From: Segetibacter sp.
GTDB lineage: Bacteria > Bacteroidota > Bacteroidia > Chitinophagales > Chitinophagaceae
Direction of reading: 5' to 3'
DNA length: 47,304 nt
Assembly: GCA_028288505.1 (NCBI GenBank)
Contig: JAQBNN010000070.1
Location: 1-47,304 of the forward strand
This document shows, piece by piece, positions 4,891-45,227 of the stretch. The notes under the pieces were generated by a model. The model was not told the origin of the DNA, searched no databases, and worked only from the letters and a program-made list of their open reading frames with translations. Position 1 is the first letter of the stretch. Each line of letters opens with the position of its first letter. The position numbers were made by a program, and so were the translations under genes.

Positions 4891-4926
4891 GAGAAGTGCC
4901 GGATATATAAGAGAAATAAAGGAAGA

Positions 4927-4982
4927 TTTTTTTAGCCAACTCTAGAATATCTATTAAACATCGTTGTGTCACTCACTTGTAC
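4927..4982 (-). repeat. GTAC-palindrome element, copy 2 (class B)
   Basis: Minus orientation. On the minus strand it begins with the same 24 bases as copy 1 and ends in an AT-rich tail (GGCTAAAAAAA). It faces copy 1 across the zinc-ribbon/CPBP/TPR genes. Confidence 0.85.
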
Positions 4983-5166
4983 TTTTAGTTTTTTATTCAT
5001 CTTTCCACAACTGTACAAAAAGACTACTTTATGAACGAGTTTGCAGTCGGCATAAATTTTATACAACACTTTAAATGCAGGAAGTAGAAGGATAGCTTCT
5101 GTAATTCAGGTAAAATTATTTTATTGCACTACGTAATAAACGTAATAACTAACAGATTCATTTTAC

Positions 5167-5697
5167 ATGGCAGGCTCAATTAAAATTTTACCGCACTACA
5201 CTTACGAGGATTATAAAAACTGGAAAGGCCAATGGGAATTGATCCACGGGATTCCTTTTGCCATGAGCCGTGAGCCAAACCACCAGAAAATAGCCAGTTC
5301 AATTATTGCCGAATTCGGATTTGCCTTAAAAAATACAGAGTTTGTAGTTTACATCCCGCTCGACTATAAAGTAGATGAAGAAACGGTTCTTCAGCCGGAC
5401 ATGTTGGTAGTAAAGGGCGATATAGAAAAAAGCTACCTCGATTTTGCTCCTGAACTTATTGTCGAAGTTTTGTCTACCGCCACCAGTTTAAAAGACAAGC
5501 ACAGCAAATATTCCATCTACGAATCGCAGTTAATAAAATACTACGTAATAGTGTGCCCTGATACTAATGATATAGAAGTTTACGAGATGAAGGGCGAGGC
5601 TTATGAACTCAAGCAAAAAGGAAAAGCATTTACTTACCAGTTTTCCTTTTCAGAAACCTGCATTGCAGAGATCGACTTCAACGAGATCTGGAAATAA
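5167..5697 (+). CDS. Uma2 family (DUF820) endonuclease-like protein
   Basis: A 176-residue protein of the Uma2/DUF820 family, which has the PD-(D/E)XK nuclease fold. It shows WELIHGIPFAMS near the start, LQPDMLVV (Asp), PELIVEVLS (Glu) and a following Lys in TSLKDKHSKY, then IKYYVIVCPDTNDIEVYE, in the order expected for this family. The family is strongly expanded in cyanobacteria and present in Bacteroidetes, often near mobile DNA; its cellular role is not established. The gene stands alone, between repeat copies 2 and 3 whose palindrome ends point toward it, so it is bracketed by an imperfect inverted repeat. Confidence 0.88.
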   Translation: MAGSIKILPHYTYEDYKNWKGQWELIHGIPFAMSREPNHQKIASSIIAEFGFALKNTEFVVYIPLDYKVDEETVLQPDMLVVKGDIEKSYLDFAPELIVEVLSTATSLKDKHSKYSIYESQLIKYYVIVCPDTNDIEVYEMKGEAYELKQKGKAFTYQFSFSETCIAEIDFNEIWK

Positions 5698-5744
5698 AAC
5701 AACGACTGTAAATAGCTATCGTTCTTGCTGTGTTTAAATAAAAA

Positions 5745-5800
5745 GTACAAGTGTGCGACGCAAGAGAGCTTCATAGTAATTCTTCGGCCCGTGACCAAAA
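5745..5800 (+). repeat. GTAC-palindrome element, copy 3 (class A)
   Basis: Begins GTACAAGTGTGCGACGCAA, then a diverged middle (GAGAGCTTCATAG) and tail CCCGTGACCAAAA. It lies in a convergent gap, with the tail facing the stop of the minus-strand PQQ dehydrogenase gene. Confidence 0.8.
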
Positions 5801-11794: not shown

Positions 11795-12373
11795 ATGCGT
11801 ATTAAGATCAATTGGTATATAACAACCTTCATTACTATTTTTATGTGGTACGGTTGTTATTCTCAACCTTCAGCAAAAAAAAATAATATGGATACAGTTA
11901 AAAATAACCCTGTTTTTAGTAAAACAGATACCGCTACCGTAGCGTTGCCCGAAGATGAATGGAAGAAAGTTTTGACACCCGAGCAATACTATGTTGCCCG
12001 ACAAAAAGGTACCGAGAGGCCTGGAACTAGCAAGTATGAATATTCGAAAGAAATAGGAACTTATTATTGTGCGGCTTGTGGCAATGGTCTTTTTAAAAGC
12101 GATACAAAGTTCGAAAGCGGCTGCGGCTGGCCCAGCTTTTACGAGCCAATAAGTAAGGCCGCCATTATTTACACCCCCGATAATACCCACGGAATGCAAA
12201 GAACGGAAGTGCAATGCGGACGTTGTAAAGCGCACCTCGGTCACGTGTTTGAAGATGGCCCACCACCCACCGGTTTACGTTATTGCATCAACGGTGTCAT
12301 CCTCGATTTTGAAAAGGCAAAAGATGTAGAAAAAAAGTATAAAGCAAATCCTCCCGCCTCGGGTGGTGAGTAG
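11795..12373 (+). CDS. msrB: Peptide-methionine (R)-S-oxide reductase, lipoprotein
   Basis: Reduces methionine-R-sulfoxide in proteins with thioredoxin-type reductants. The 192-residue protein begins with a hydrophobic segment ending in MWYGC (Cys21), a probable lipobox, so it should act in the periplasm or on a membrane. The MsrB domain shows the zinc pairs Cys92/Cys95 (YYCAACG) and Cys141/Cys144 (QCGRC), the resolving Cys110 in SGCGWPSF and the catalytic Cys164 in RYCIN. TAAATTTG lies only five bases before the ATG, so the mRNA may have almost no leader, or translation may start further inside. Confidence 0.93.
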
Positions 12374-12427
12374 TTGGTTGTCAGCCGGGGTTTTTCATGT
12401 CATCATCGTTGTGTCACTCACTTGTGC
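12374..12427 (-). repeat. GTAC-palindrome element, copy 7 (class B)
   Basis: Minus orientation, starting at the first base after the msrB stop codon (TTGGTTGTCAGCC). The palindrome block ends in GTGC instead of GTAC. Together with copy 8 it makes a head-to-head pair of 244 bp in total. Confidence 0.82.
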
Positions 12428-12493
12428 AGTTGCTACAACTGGCATCTTTAAGACAATCTCGGGTAAAGAACATCATAACTATATTTGGGGAAG

Positions 12494-12518
12494 AGGTCGT
12501 TGAGAAACGGCCTTTTTT
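12494..12518 (+). terminator. Rho-independent terminator after msrB
   Basis: Stem AGGTCGTT / AACGGCCT (one wobble pair) closed by a GAGA loop of the GNRA type, followed by T residues. It lies about 120 bp after msrB, between repeat copies 7 and 8. Confidence 0.7.
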
Positions 12519-12559
12519 CATTTTGTAAAATGCAGGAAAAGCTGAACAGAAAACAGAAG

Positions 12560-12617
12560 GATGAACGGATTGCGACGCAACGATGATGCTATGAAATACC
12601 AATGCTGGTACCAAAAA
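12560..12617 (+). repeat. GTAC-palindrome element, copy 8 (class A)
   Basis: Begins GATGAACGGATTGCGACGC, then AACGATGATGCTATGAAA and a near-consensus tail AATGCTGGTACCAAAAA. One of the best full-length copies. Confidence 0.9.
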
Positions 12618-16668: not shown

Positions 16669-16727
16669 TTTTTGTATACAGGCTGTATAGTCCTAATTCA
16701 ACATTGTTGCGTCGCAATTCGTTCATC
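16669..16727 (-). repeat. GTAC-palindrome element, copy 9 (class A)
   Basis: Minus orientation, in a convergent gap. On the minus strand it begins GATGAACGAATTGCGACGCA, with a diverged middle, and ends in TGTATACAAAAAA. It faces copy 8 across the aminotransferase-to-EamA genes. Confidence 0.78.
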
Positions 16728-16764
16728 TCTAGTGCTACTATTAAGCTTTTCCCGTGTTTTGTTT

Positions 16765-17478
16765 TTATGAAGCCTTTCCCAATATTCTCACTGCTACCTG
16801 TTCATGCAATTGATTGTAGCACAGGTATTCGTATTCATATCCGGTTTCTTCAATCCATTCCTGAAATGCTTTAAACTCATGCTCCTGCCACCTTGGATAA
16901 TTGAAGTACTCATCGAAGATGATGATTGTTCCCTCTATAATCCGGTGTTTCATAAAATCAAAAATTACCTTAGTCGACGAGTACAAATCACAATCTACGT
17001 GTAGTAAGGCCAGCGGTTGTGAGTTTTGCTGGACAAATAATGGTAAAGTTTCGTTGAACCAACCTTTATGTAAAACAACATTTGCTTCGAATTTCGGTAG
17101 CGCTCCCTTTAGGTCAAAAAAACCTTCCCCATATCCGGGCTTCCAGTATTCGGGTAGTCCTTCAAAAGAATCGAATCCATGAAAAGTGACGTTTTTATTT
17201 GGAGCCATGTAATTAATGGAGGAGCCTTTATATACTCCAAACTCACAATACAACCCATCTTCTATGAGCGGCACCTTGTTAAAAATGAAATCGTATACTT
17301 CAAACGAAGTATTTAAGGGAATAGCAAGTTCCATGTTATTTAAAACATAGTAAGCGGTCTCCGTATTGGCAATTTCGAGCAGCCTGTTTTCGATGTTGGT
17401 TATGGACTTTTTAACTTCGTCTTTAACATGAACACGTACACGCTTTATTACTTTGTTGAGGCTCTTAAACAGGTACAT
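16765..17478 (-). CDS. TylF/MycF-like class I SAM-dependent methyltransferase
   Basis: A 237-residue protein of the macrocin O-methyltransferase (TylF/MycF) family. Seen are the SAM loop YCEFGVYKGSSINYM, the FHGFDSFEGLPEYW segment, LLHVDCDLYSSTK and IIFDEYFNYPRWQEHE, where the acidic residues bind a metal in characterised relatives. Family members methylate sugar hydroxyls in antibiotics and surface glycans. Here it stands alone between repeat copies 9 and 10, with no sugar or antibiotic gene around, so its target is unknown. Confidence 0.85.
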   Translation of the reverse strand: MYLFKSLNKVIKRVRVHVKDEVKKSITNIENRLLEIANTETAYYVLNNMELAIPLNTSFEVYDFIFNKVPLIEDGLYCEFGVYKGSSINYMAPNKNVTFHGFDSFEGLPEYWKPGYGEGFFDLKGALPKFEANVVLHKGWFNETLPLFVQQNSQPLALLHVDCDLYSSTKVIFDFMKHRIIEGTIIIFDEYFNYPRWQEHEFKAFQEWIEETGYEYEYLCYNQLHEQVAVRILGKAS

Positions 17479-17724
17479 TTAATATTTGTTTAGTTGTTTC
17501 CAATCCGGTTTTACATATAACTTTTCCAATCGTTCTGGTTGTTTCTTAAGCTTACCTGCGAGGCTTAAGCACTAAACATAAACTATTTACTGGCGCAAAA
17601 AATATAGTAAGGTTCTCGGGCACAGCTAAGAGTTGAAATACTTACACATACTAACCTAAAATGGTAGCCAAAAAAAGAAGTAAAACGAATGCAGTTTGAA
17701 ACTTGTGGTGCTATATGATAAACA
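17479..17724. other. Intergenic region without a recognised gene
   Basis: Upstream of the methyltransferase gene and up to repeat copy 10. An exact TTAAGC/GCTTAA-type inverted repeat lies near 17548-17571 (TTAAGC TTACCTGCGAG GCTTAA). No gene seen. Confidence 0.4.
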
Positions 17725-17780
17725 GATGAAGTGATGCGACGCAACGATGATGCTATGGAATACTAATGCTTGTATTAAAA
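17725..17780 (+). repeat. GTAC-palindrome element, copy 10 (class A)
   Basis: Begins GATGAAGTGATGCGACGC (one base shorter than consensus), then AACGATGATGCTATGGAA and tail ACTAATGCTTGTATTAAAA. It ends 12 bp from the stop of the SixA-like gene. Confidence 0.88.
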
Positions 17781-17791
17781 TTATTTTAACC

Positions 17792-27814: not shown

Positions 27815-27870
27815 TTTTTTATATCAATCGCTCATTGTCCGAGAGATAGAAACTTTAGTAATGAGAATAT

Positions 27871-27924
27871 TTATGTTACCAGCATTAGTATTTATAAAGA
27901 GACTTTGCTTGCGACGCTCCGTTC
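27871..27924 (-). repeat. GTAC-palindrome element, copy 14 (degenerate)
   Basis: Minus orientation: the tail half is clear (TTACCAGCATTAGTATTT on the plus strand), and the palindrome half is eroded (TTGCGACGCTCCGTTC). It faces copy 13 across rho. Confidence 0.6.
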
Positions 27925-27991
27925 AAAAGTTGTTTTTCAATTATACTTTTTGCTGAAAGTGTTATCTTTCCACCCTCTTAATAACTAATAA

Positions 27992-38507: not shown

Positions 38508-39009
38508 TTTCTGCTCTCCATCATCCGCGAAAGTCGCAAATAAGATGTTTTAAAATTCCCAAAACTTTTATACTCTACTCCTAACACAAATGCTGTAGCA
38601 TTTTAGCGACAAATTTACAGACAAAACCTTCTCTAAAGCGGCAGCAGCAATTTGTTTGTTTATCAATTTATTTGTATGCCCGAAACAACACCGAACTATA
38701 GGCAATTCTTCAACTAAGGTACTTATAAAATGATGCCACCCAATTCTTACAACATGAGAGGTAATAATACATAACGTGCTAGTAGTTAAAATATTCTGCT
38801 GCTATTAAAATAGCGGATACAGTAAAATGACGTGAAGGTTTTTTTGTACTTAGCAATAGAACAATAATTAAGCAGCCGTTGCGTTGCACACTGCAACTGT
38901 ATACCGCTATCTGGCAAGTGAACCATTTCTTATTCAAGGCTGTTTACGAAAGTTAGTTGTAAAGGCAGCTAGCTTTTACAATGAACCTGCGGATGCAAAA
39001 AAATTTGCC
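38508..39009. other. Intergenic region upstream of rpoN
   Basis: About 500 bp between the divergent rpoN and uvrB genes. No gene, hairpin or promoter that I can support; it ends at repeat copy 18. Confidence 0.4.
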
Positions 39010-39067
39010 GATGAAGTGATTGCGACGCAACGATGATGCTATGAAAATGGCTGCTGGTACAAAAAAA
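39010..39067 (+). repeat. GTAC-palindrome element, copy 18 (class A)
   Basis: GATGAAGTGATTGCGACGC, AACGATGATGCTATGAAAA, then a tail GCTGCTGGTACAAAAAAA. It lies about 90 bp before uvrB. Confidence 0.9.
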
Positions 39068-41906: not shown

Positions 41907-43469
41907 ATGAAGTGGCTCATGTTGCTTTTATTCATTCCATTAACTGCTACTACCCCAAAAACTGCAGACATCATTATTCGTAACGGCAAAATAATTGACG
42001 GCACTGGTAACAACTGGTACTACGGAGACATCGCAATCCTAGATGGCAGAATAGCAGCTATCGGAAAATTACAAGGTTGGAAAGCGGGGAGAATCCTTGA
42101 TGCCTCAGGCCTTGTAATCGCCCCCGGCTTTATTGATGTTCATACCCACATTGAAGACGACGAGGTGAAGAACCCGACAGCATCAAATTTTATTTACGAT
42201 GGTGTTACTTCGGTTGTAACCGGTAATTGTGGCTCTTCAAGGTTAGATCTAGAGAAGTATTTCGGAATGCTCGATAGTTTAAAACTCTCCGTAAATGTGG
42301 CATCGCTTATCGGGCATAATGATGTAAGAAAAGCTGCCATGGGCAGGGCTTTCAGGGATCCTACCGTTGAGGAGTTGGAAAAAATGAAATTTATTGTGGA
42401 GAAGGCAATGAAGGATGGTGCAGTGGGTATGTCAACAGGTTTGATTTACATTCCTGGCACTTATTCTAAAACGCCTGAGATAGTTGAACTGGCAAAAGTG
42501 GTGGCAAAGTACAGTGGTGTTTATGCAAGCCACATGCGCAACGAGGGAGATAGCGTTGTAGAGGCAATAGAAGAAGCACTAACTGTTGGACGGGAAGCAA
42601 AATTGCCTGTTGAAATCTCTCACTTTAAAGTGGGCGGTAAAAACAATTGGGGCAGGTCAAATCAAACACTTGAATTGGTGAAGAAAGCGCGGGAAAGTGG
42701 ATTAGATGTAACCATTGACCAATATCCATACACTGCAAGCAGCACCTCGTTAAGTACAATGCTACCCGAATGGATCTTAGCCGATGGACAGGACAGCGTT
42801 AAAGCAAGACTTTCAAACCCGGCAATTAGAAAGGATGCTATCAGCACAATGTTGAAAGGTCTTAAGAGAAGGAAGCTGAAGCATTTTGATTACGCTAGGG
42901 TATCGTACTACAAGCCTGATACAACCTTTAACGGTAAAAGTATCGAGCAGGTAAATCTTCTATCGGGTAAAAAGCATAAGGCAAAGGACGAAGCCGAAAC
43001 TGTTTTGCAGATGATGGAAAAAGGCGGAGCACAAATGGTTTTCCATGGCATGAGCGAGGATGATGTAAAGAACATTATGAAATATCCTTTCAACATGTTT
43101 GCAAGCGATGCAAGCATTCGGATCTTCGGGCAAGGCGTACCGCACCCGAGAGGTTATGGAACCAATGCAAGGGTGCTCGCTAAGTATGTTCGGGAAGAAA
43201 AAGTGATAACACTTGAAGAAGCAATAAGAAGGATGACTTCGCTACCCGCTCAGAAATTTAACCTCGCCAACAGGGGATTATTAAAAGAAGGCTTTGCCGC
43301 TGATATTGTTGTTTTTAGTGAAAGCGAAGTAAAAGACATGTCAACGTTTGATAAGCCGCACCAGTATTCTACCGGCTTTAAATATGTTTTGGTAAACGGC
43401 GCACTAACTTTGGAGAACAACCAACACAATGGCACAAGAAAAGGAATGATATTAAGGCAACAGCTTTAA
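41907..43469 (+). CDS. N-acyl-D-amino-acid deacylase-like amidohydrolase
   Basis: A 520-residue exported metal-dependent hydrolase (N-terminal hydrophobic segment MKWLMLLLFIPLTATT). It has the amidohydrolase barrel with FIDVHTHIEDDE (HxH), GNCGSS, GMSTGLIYIPG, ASHMRNEGD, EISHFKVGG and DQYPYTASSTSL, a pattern characteristic of D-aminoacylases and dihydroorotase-like relatives. These cleave N-acyl-D-amino acids or D-amino-acid dipeptides. A role in handling peptidoglycan-derived or foreign D-amino acids is inferred. Confidence 0.87.
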   Translation: MKWLMLLLFIPLTATTPKTADIIIRNGKIIDGTGNNWYYGDIAILDGRIAAIGKLQGWKAGRILDASGLVIAPGFIDVHTHIEDDEVKNPTASNFIYDGVTSVVTGNCGSSRLDLEKYFGMLDSLKLSVNVASLIGHNDVRKAAMGRAFRDPTVEELEKMKFIVEKAMKDGAVGMSTGLIYIPGTYSKTPEIVELAKVVAKYSGVYASHMRNEGDSVVEAIEEALTVGREAKLPVEISHFKVGGKNNWGRSNQTLELVKKARESGLDVTIDQYPYTASSTSLSTMLPEWILADGQDSVKARLSNPAIRKDAISTMLKGLKRRKLKHFDYARVSYYKPDTTFNGKSIEQVNLLSGKKHKAKDEAETVLQMMEKGGAQMVFHGMSEDDVKNIMKYPFNMFASDASIRIFGQGVPHPRGYGTNARVLAKYVREEKVITLEEAIRRMTSLPAQKFNLANRGLLKEGFAADIVVFSESEVKDMSTFDKPHQYSTGFKYVLVNGALTLENNQHNGTRKGMILRQQL

Positions 43470-43482
43470 TTAATCGTTTTTA

Positions 43483-43538
43483 TTTTGGTTACCAGCATTC
43501 GTATTTCATAGCATCATCGTTGCGTCGCACTCTTGTAC
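43483..43538 (-). repeat. GTAC-palindrome element, copy 20 (class A)
   Basis: Minus orientation. Near-consensus tail on the plus strand (TTTTGGTTACCAGCATTC), TTTCATAGCATCATCG, and the block GTTGCGTCGCACTCTTGTAC. Head-to-head with copy 21. Confidence 0.92.
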
Positions 43539-43615
43539 TATCTTTTATCTTATGATCGCGATGTAAGCTTAAATGGGTCGAGCTGGTGCAGCAACGGCCG
43601 CATAATGAACCAACA

Positions 43616-43672
43616 GTACAAGAGTGCGACGCAACGAAAGTTACATCTCCGTTACTGCTGCTGGCTACCAAA
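43616..43672 (+). repeat. GTAC-palindrome element, copy 21 (class A)
   Basis: The first 22 bases equal the reverse complement of copy 20 (GTACAAGAGTGCGACGC onward). Its middle is diverged, and the tail is GCTGCTGGCTACCAAAAAA. With copy 20 it spans 190 bp with a 77-bp spacer. Confidence 0.9.
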
Positions 43673-43685
43673 AAAATAACTGTAA

Positions 43686-45227
43686 TTAAGCGGGTAATAA
43701 AACAGTAAAAGTGGCACCTTCTGCTAGTTGCGAAGAAGCAAAAATATACCCATTGTGATTTTCTATAACCTTTTGAACAATGGCAAGGCCAACACCGGTT
43801 CCGGCATATTCACTACGGCCATGTAGCCGCTGAAAGATCTTAAAAATCCGCTCTGCATGTTCCTGCTCAAAGCCGATTCCGTTGTCTTCCACTTCTATAC
43901 AATGAAACGACTTTTGGTCATCCTCGGGTTTAACCTTACCAGTCATCTCGCTGCCTGGCAACAGCTTTGATCGGATTGTAATTTGGGGAACAATATCAGT
44001 TCGGTTGTACTTTAAAGAATTGCTGATAAGATTTTGAAACATTTGGGTTAACTGCACAACATCACCTTCAAGGGTTGGAAGATGATCGACACTTACGTTT
44101 GCATTGGTTTCATGAATTCGCGTTTCCAAATCTACCAGAACCTGTTGCACTACACTATTAGTATCTACAAGTTCAAAAGGTTCTCTTGTAGAACTTACTT
44201 TGGAATAGGCAAGCAAGTCTTCAATTAGAGTGCTCATACGCTTCGAAGCAGCTTCAATGCGGTCTATCACAACGGCTCCATCGTCGCTTAAAGCGGAATG
44301 AAAACGTGTTTTAAGACGTTCGGCGTAATAGGTAATTTTACGTAGTGGCTCCTGCAAATCGTGTGAAGCGGCATAAGCAAAGTCTTCGAGGTTAGCATTC
44401 GAGCGTTTTAAATCGAGGTTTGCTGCCTCGAGTTTTAGTTGTAGTTGCTTGATAGAAGTATAATCAGTAAAAGTTACGAGCACTTCATTAGCGTGCTTTG
44501 TCGATAATATATCAAGCCATACGTCAATGCCATCGGCATTATAATGAAAATCGAAACGGTTCGTCTTTCCTGTTTCGTAAGTTTCTTTGTAAAGATCGAA
44601 CAAGCCGTTGGTCTTGTACGTAGGAAACCATTTACTACCAAGATCGTTTATTAAAGTCTCCGGCTCCTGCCCTACGTAAGAAGCAAGTGAACGGTTGGCG
44701 TAAGTAAAAGAAAAATCTATGATCTCTTTTGCCTCATTAAGAACAGGACTGAAAAGGAACATGCCAGATTGTGCAATATCAATAATAGCATTTAACTGCT
44801 TCATCGATCGTTCAATATTCTGCTGGTATTGCTTCTTTTCTGTAATGTTTACAAAAGTTACTACCAGGGCGTCTTCATGCGGTGCAACTCCTATATCGAA
44901 CCAGCCAGTTAATGTTCCATCGTCGTAAAAAAGTTCTTTTCGCAGTACTTCCTTCTGTTGTAATGCAGTTGCATATACCTCGAAAAACCCTTGGTCTATA
45001 GAAGTTGCAAATACCTCTGTAAGTGGTTTACCTATAGTGCTTTCACCTTTAATACCTACCTGCTTTTCAAAAGCAGTGTTAGCTGCTTTTATTATAAAAT
45101 CAATGATGACTCCGTCTTTCGATTTGATCGGGTCTAGTAGCATAATACCGTGCATCGATGCGTCAAGCATACTTTGTATAAAGCTGTCGTGTCTTTCTTT
45201 TATTTCTCCCGGTTGCTCAAGTACCAT
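43686..45227 (-). CDS. PAS-domain sensor histidine kinase
   Basis: A 513-residue soluble kinase without membrane helices. Two PAS domains span about residues 15-130 and 145-260. The HisKA domain has the phosphoacceptor His289 in YAASHDLQEPLRKI, and the ATPase shows MFQNLISNSLKYNR (N box), IEVEDNGIGFEQ (G1) and GTGVGLAIVQKVI (G2). The H box with ASHDLQEP is of the bacteriophytochrome-like group. No response regulator is beside it, so the partner is unknown. The signal is also unknown, presumably sensed by the PAS domains in the cytoplasm. Confidence 0.92.
   Translation of the reverse strand: MVLEQPGEIKERHDSFIQSMLDASMHGIMLLDPIKSKDGVIIDFIIKAANTAFEKQVGIKGESTIGKPLTEVFATSIDQGFFEVYATALQQKEVLRKELFYDDGTLTGWFDIGVAPHEDALVVTFVNITEKKQYQQNIERSMKQLNAIIDIAQSGMFLFSPVLNEAKEIIDFSFTYANRSLASYVGQEPETLINDLGSKWFPTYKTNGLFDLYKETYETGKTNRFDFHYNADGIDVWLDILSTKHANEVLVTFTDYTSIKQLQLKLEAANLDLKRSNANLEDFAYAASHDLQEPLRKITYYAERLKTRFHSALSDDGAVVIDRIEAASKRMSTLIEDLLAYSKVSSTREPFELVDTNSVVQQVLVDLETRIHETNANVSVDHLPTLEGDVVQLTQMFQNLISNSLKYNRTDIVPQITIRSKLLPGSEMTGKVKPEDDQKSFHCIEVEDNGIGFEQEHAERIFKIFQRLHGRSEYAGTGVGLAIVQKVIENHNGYIFASSQLAEGATFTVLLPA

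Follow-up and report, generated by a model that had tools for sequence, protein, structure and literature searches.

Facing copies of an intergenic repeat in a Segetibacter genome and a tentative reading as BIME-like dimers

The facing copies and their surroundings

The window is the whole stretch of DNA analysed, a contig of 47,304 nucleotides from Segetibacter sp. It contains the following facing copies of a directional repeat, which has a head side, a core and a tail.

43481..43539, minus strand: left copy of the pair under study, B subtype; head inward, tail 11 bp past ORF 41907-43469
43540..43614, no strand: spacer of 75 bp between the two heads, without a terminator-like site
43615..43672, plus strand: right copy of this pair, B subtype; its tail points to the stop codon of the minus-strand ORF 43686-45227
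12371..12428, minus strand: left copy of a second pair (A subtype), beginning at the ORF 11795-12373 stop codon
12488..12519, plus strand: terminator-like hairpin with a T run in the spacer of the second pair (1 found against a shuffle mean of 0.4)
12556..12617, plus strand: right copy of the second pair, C subtype
38835..38900, minus strand: left copy of a third pair, B subtype with a variant core (38885); limits approximate
39006..39067, plus strand: right copy of the third pair, C subtype (39024), with its core approximately 130 bp upstream of uvrB
4920..5783, no strand: wide head-to-head bracket (4970 minus, 5757 plus) enclosing a Uma2-family gene
16682..17783, no strand: wide head-to-head bracket (16713 minus, 17738 plus) enclosing a gene with methyltransferase matches

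Direct reading of the window shows CGTTGCGTCGCACTCTTGTACT (43518-43539) facing AGTACAAGAGTGCGACGCAACG (43615-43636), and the second is the reverse complement of the first without a mismatch. The first-pass annotation had described copies facing each other at 43483-43672 with 22 identical bases across 77 bp; the 22 bases are present, and the spacer measures 75 bp. The outer arms (approximately 43483-43497 and 43657-43672) are complementary too. Folded as RNA, the unit reaches −74.3 kcal/mol (z −6.4), and 0 of 200 shuffled sequences folded equally well. A search of the pair for an intrinsic terminator, with a hairpin and a T run at the 3' end, found 0. At the Rfam gathering score the window matched one tRNA only, and the repeat gave no match to a known RNA family.

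The similar pair that had been placed at 12374-12617 is real (12371-12617), and a terminator-like hairpin does lie in its spacer; its halves are of the A and C subtypes and do not have identical ends. The hairpin belongs to the spacer and not to the copies. The first-pass annotation had placed both pairs right after stop codons. A scan of the window for the core returned 22 copies, two of them with two core mismatches. At 27862-27956, two decayed copies overlap in opposite orientation.

Sequence and distribution of the repeat family

A profile built from these 22 copies was run on 381 kb of the genome of the window (G000), the window included, and found 169 copies at E ≤ 0.01, of which 4 fall inside ORFs of at least 120 aa. 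In the repeat unit of approximately 80 nt, a core under strong conservation separates the head side from the tail, whose end resembles GCTGGTACCAAAAA; outside the core, weaker conservation extends to approximately 40 nt on each side. Around GAC, three subtypes have a core in common, which reads GTACAAGTGAGTGACACAACG in A, GTACAAGAGTGCGACGCAACG in B and GATGAAGTGATTGCGACGCAACG in C; their core forms are GTGAGTGACACAAC for A, GAGTGCGACGCAAC for B and ATTGCGACGCAAC for C. In the G000 genome there are 283 matches to the pattern AAGNNTGCGACGCAACG and 0 to a control pattern. Copies are held by 100 of 133 gaps of 120–700 bp in G000 (26/32 convergent, 59/75 tandem and 15/26 divergent).

Among 147 genomes from the GTDB family, 51 contain the exact pattern CAAGNNTGCGACGCAACG, which misses A copies, and 96 do not; the number of occurrences per genome runs from 0 to 389. 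In a class-wide draw it was found in 3 of 247 genomes, all three of the same GTDB family. In the samples searched, the repeat was found only in this family, Chitinophagaceae. The named genera among the matches listed are Segetibacter, Foetidibacter, Ferruginibacter and Pinibacter. A perfect core of 13–14 bases is carried by 143 of 257 copies in the relative G160 and by 149 of 198 in G078. A search of open-access papers returned no description of this intergenic repeat family of approximately 80 nt.

Orientation and subtypes of close pairs

Among neighbouring copies less than 250 bp apart in the 381 kb of G000, 26 are head-to-head, 1 is tail-to-tail and 0 are direct (p 4.6e-15 against 25%). The first-pass annotation had proposed to look for other close pairs, and many exist. 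The corresponding counts (head-to-head/tail-to-tail/direct) are 18/1/0 in named contigs, at 99 loci that had been chosen for having a B copy; two stretches of G160 give 60/8/0 and 13/0/0, and G078 gives 28/3/3. Opposite units at short distance, as in a BIME, are the usual arrangement. Some of the G160 pairs at spacings of 49 and 56 sit in a periodic array of 2.6 kb and are not independent. This array (L253-L255, G160:C1 at approximately 249–295 kb) is made of tandem units of approximately 2.6 kb, many with a head-to-head pair at the junction, and blocks of it match G078.

Close pairs mostly join A with B or C. This holds for 19 of the 26 pairs in G000 (p 0.010) and for 82 of 98 typed pairs in a second genus, g70 (p 3e-13; 3 untyped pairs were dropped), and A with A was seen in 0/26 and 1/98, respectively. 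The family thus combines distinct unit subtypes in the manner of BIMEs; the 43481-43672 pair itself joins B with B, one of 5 such among the 26. Wide brackets follow no mixed-subtype rule (53 of 108 are mixed), which speaks against all of them being stretched pairs.

Neighbours in G000 beyond 250 bp are head-to-head in 40 cases, tail-to-tail in 53 and direct in 28. We considered a long-range alternation of orientation as a separate rule. Once head-to-head neighbours up to 2.5 kb were counted as pairs, the remaining counts fitted random placement in G000 and G160, and less well in G078, and no such rule is claimed. A purge of direct repeats by recombination was also rejected, since same-type direct neighbours are no rarer than mixed ones.

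DNA and genes between partners

At G160:C1:124914-125130 the cores of an A/B pair lie 120 bp apart. The orthologous G078 locus has the same A/B pair between the same flanking genes, at a distance of 2.1 kb and with a 613-aa ORF inside. Head-to-head neighbours also predominate at 250–1300 bp (73, with 23 tail-to-tail and 7 direct) in a pool of five data sets that possibly overlap in part. Conservation of genes inside head-to-head brackets is not clearly reduced (17 of 26 cases, against 56 of 67 for tail-to-tail, p 0.09; p 0.33 against the rest). Between G160 and G078, the genes present are not the same at 9 of the 21 junctions that have a head-to-head pair, at 5 of the 24 that have copies in another arrangement and at 1 of the 43 without copies, a contrast confounded by the fact that longer intervals hold more copies. 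Gene gain between heads was not upheld as a general rule; inspection by eye gave two clear cases (124914 and 312737) and approximately 5 for and 4 against.

Folding and position relative to genes

Single copies folded as RNA no better than shuffled sequences (26 each of A, B and C, both strands, median z approximately 0), and the 26 G000 pairs folded better than shuffles (median z −2.8). The individual unit is not a palindrome of the REP kind and contains only a dyad of 7–11 bp with a one-base centre. Covariation in this dyad could not be read within subtypes, the columns being nearly invariant. A search for hidden partners of single copies found 3 of 117 on the head side and the same number, 3, on the control tail side.

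The tail is directed at a stop in 62% of the copies in G000 (104 of 167), 54% in G160 (134 of 247) and 53% in G078 (98 of 184), and on these percentages a strict orientation rule for 3' ends was rejected. Tails that face a stop do stand close to it. Cores lie 30–65 nt from the stop for 35/104 tails against 11/85 heads in G000, 64/134 against 25/130 in G160, and 50/98 against 7/95 in G078.

Conservation of sites between species

G160 and G078 belong to the same genus, show 67–84% identity in aligned blocks and share 88 orthologous gene junctions. We dropped 17 junctions with extra genes and more than 600 bp. In the 71 that were kept, copies are present in both genomes at 23, in neither at 42, in G160 only at 5 and in G078 only at 1. 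Where both gaps are at least 80 bp (n=31), the numbers are 22, 8, 1 and 0, respectively (p 1e-6). Sites with a single copy in each species number 12, and all 12 have it in the same orientation; there is one orthologous site with discordant arrangements (<> against <<<). Among 28 copies matched by orientation, 23 have the same subtype. Many copies thus keep their place and orientation between the two species, but the sequence on the head side is not kept. Its identity is 0.40 for matched orthologous copies and 0.40 for random same-type copies, whereas the tail gives 0.57 against 0.50 and the region beyond the tail 0.53 against 0.38. The places are thus old and the head side is saturated, and the cores stay family-like. 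Core identity is 0.85 for matched orthologous against 0.89 for random same-type copies, which is no clean measure of constraint because the profile that found the copies is dominated by the core and under-counts decayed ones.

Relatives of G000 were compared at loci of the window. A search for a syntenic empty site of the 43483 pair found none, and the relatives match the left gene only. At seven loci of left-gene orthologues, a copy lies downstream in 2 (approximately 75 bp past the gene in G009 and 340 bp in G004) and none in 5. The empty-locus comparison proposed earlier was also made at the second pair. Within the genus of the window that locus is syntenic in four relatives; G009, G004 and G005 have a single copy there, oriented like the left partner, and G003 has no copy. 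In G008 a copy with the left partner's orientation precedes the right gene, and the left gene is on another contig. By eye, the copy follows a terminator-like hairpin in G009 and G004 and precedes one in G000, so its position is not exactly kept.

Upstream of uvrB, beside the third pair, G009 (128 bp) and G005 (131 bp; a weak match of 17.7 bits) each show a B-type copy oriented like the right partner, which in G000 is of the C type. A weak copy in the opposite orientation stands at approximately 255 bp in G004 (at 271 bp in G000). No copy was seen within 330 bp of uvrB in the remaining relatives scanned, and a doubtful one in G002 (12 bits) lies further off. Single copies in relatives resemble one partner, which fits the loss of the other from a pair but might also reflect later gain or reoccupation.

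RAYT genes and nested palindromes

Of the 147 genomes from the GTDB family, 114 have matches to REP-associated tyrosine transposases (RAYTs). A repeat copy lies within 450 bp at 16 of 82 RAYT loci, many of which come from genomes with few or no copies, and at 15 of 52 among those from the genus and from repeat-bearing genomes. Copies of this repeat are no regular neighbours of RAYT genes. At six loci checked, other repeated palindromes accompany the gene in four (L240, L231, L226 and L225), and none is clear in L195 and L205. The repeat copies lie beyond these palindromes in L240 and L231 and inside them in L226. Among the loci checked there was no RAYT for which, in several genomes, the closest palindromes on its flanks were copies of this repeat. 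The palindrome set differs for each of these four RAYT genes of G160 and G078.

The only match to NF047646 in G000 is a degraded RAYT on contig C56 (L002:1234-1635, minus strand; E 7.7e-10, 38.8 bits against a curated cut-off of 80). It lies between two facing copies, and by eye CAAGGTG..CACCTTG palindromes separate it from both. Copies within 450 bp of RAYT matches turn their head to the gene in 15 of 18 cases (p 0.008 against one half), and RAYT units may settle between heads. No transposase gene owning these repeats was found in the RAYT loci and genomes searched.

Some spacers contain other palindromic repeats of two kinds, CGCAAAGAC..CTTTGTG and GTTGCGAGGAACGA..CAATGACG (L135:3459, L135:6820, L132:17306 and L137:7451). 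In two spacers, palindromes that look by eye like the CGTC type were seen.

Discussion

The REP motifs of E. coli BIMEs fall into distinct subtypes, Y and Z1/Z2. The present repeat resembles these BIMEs in its facing halves of distinct subtypes, its intergenic location and the coexistence of pairs and singles. It differs in its sequence, in halves of approximately 80 nt that do not fold alone, and in that a link to RAYTs was not found. BIME units alternate in orientation (PMC2817692). A 2013 survey describes GTAG/CGTC REPs as stem-loops of 20–40 bp with a GTAG or CGTC tag, in which head-to-head dimers predominate, head-to-tail ones are rare and heterodimers are preferred in many families; DNA is inserted between partners, and singles are dimer remnants in one species (PMC3733652). 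On that description, head-to-head predominance, rare head-to-tail neighbours, mixed dimers and DNA between partners are common to both, but our units are approximately 80 nt long and have no GTAG tag. The TIRtrons, or TIR repeats of RAYT-like genes, are also similar, with longer inverted repeats and some families repeated and dimeric (PMC3733652); for the present repeat, unlike these, no owning transposase gene was found.

The first-pass annotation had offered a miniature transposon or a REP/BIME unit. The architecture, its variable spacer included, is indeed BIME-like, and strict REPs and, in G000, a MITE with 56-bp terminal repeats and a core find no support. In a MITE-like unit the copies would serve as the terminal inverted repeats, long ones whose two ends differ slightly, and a transposase encoded elsewhere would move the spacer too. 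The head-to-head geometry, the mixed ends and the wide variation in copy number between genomes agree with this, as does G160, where 19 of 42 spacers resemble that of another pair. For one G160 pair with its spacer, matches of 135 bp or longer were counted by eye at 28 or more other places in G160, and six copies align through tails and spacer with unrelated flanks, so that pairs in G160 moved as units. Against it, direct repeats of 4–9 bp outside 23 pairs of G000 and 101 of g70 show no excess over shuffled partners; no target-site duplication, which the annotation had proposed to look for, was thus detected, although duplications lost by age would escape this comparison. In G000, 22 of 26 spacers are unlike any other, the 4 similar ones look like other repeats nested in the spacer, and 117 of 169 copies stand outside any close pair. 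Many positions are also common to two species, and a MITE seems rather unlikely to us.

It is more doubtful still that the copies are classical REPs mobilised by a RAYT. The C56 remnant hints at this, and RAYT matches are widespread in the family, but the single copies do not fold, a GTAG tag with a stem-loop was not seen in consensus sequences read by eye, and few RAYT loci have a copy nearby while most of those checked have other palindromes; on the last two grounds a RAYT was dismissed as the mobiliser, and we regard the explanation as highly improbable. The copies could instead be inert fossils of selfish dimers that are old, play no part in the host and are lost slowly from tolerant intergenic DNA. 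The patchy distribution and copy number would suit this, and divergent gaps hold fewer copies, as they would of any insert. Cores at orthologous sites do not exceed random copies of the same type in similarity. Yet orthologous places keep recognizable cores, mostly of the same type, with the head side at random identity, and the perfect core is retained in many copies of G160 and G078. We consider inert fossils unlikely.

We tentatively favor, at somewhat less than even confidence, a BIME-like dimer of an intergenic repeat family whose old copies would act at gene ends. The family would have spread as dimers through a putative enzyme, in bursts in some lineages. Singles would arise on loss of one partner, and the settling of DNA between the heads would produce wide brackets. 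Since perfect inverted repeats are unstable over short distances, the pairs that survive may be those of mixed subtype. Old copies would persist because of a role at gene ends, for which the tails that lean toward stops and stand close to them, and the hairpin that pairs give in both directions, are our grounds. This would be the most likely role, probably as a protein-bound DNA site that marks transcript ends or gene boundaries, with pairs forming an RNA hairpin in both directions. The weak lean of tails in G160 (134/247) and G078 (98/184) counts against this explanation, and the range of 0 to 389 exact matches, the 96 of 147 genomes without any, and the pair spread over G160 would suit a dispensable or selfish element. 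Further points against it are the core identity at orthologous sites, which is no higher than among random same-type copies, the one orthologous site with discordant orientation, the C copy near uvrB in place of B copies in relatives, the changed order of copy and terminator at the second pair, the wide brackets with neither a mixed-subtype rule nor clearly less conserved genes, and the rarity of hidden partners beside singles.

A bolder and doubtful extension is that the directional core of approximately 14 bases, present in most longer gaps of G000 and two relatives, is an orientation-coded gene-boundary signal read by a putative host protein. If so, the tail side would be tied to the gene end and the head side would face variable DNA, and head-to-head pairs would be boundaries as well as tolerated landing places for new genes.

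This repeat is found in approximately three quarters of the longer intergenic gaps sampled, with neither a transposase tied to it nor single-copy folding. Repeats of such a kind are usually read as RAYT-driven or selfish, and this one often keeps its position and direction between two species. The 2013 survey states that the heterodimer preference 'has no obvious explanation' (PMC3733652). The many natural pairs of this family, close and wide, mixed and unmixed, offer material for testing ideas on that preference.
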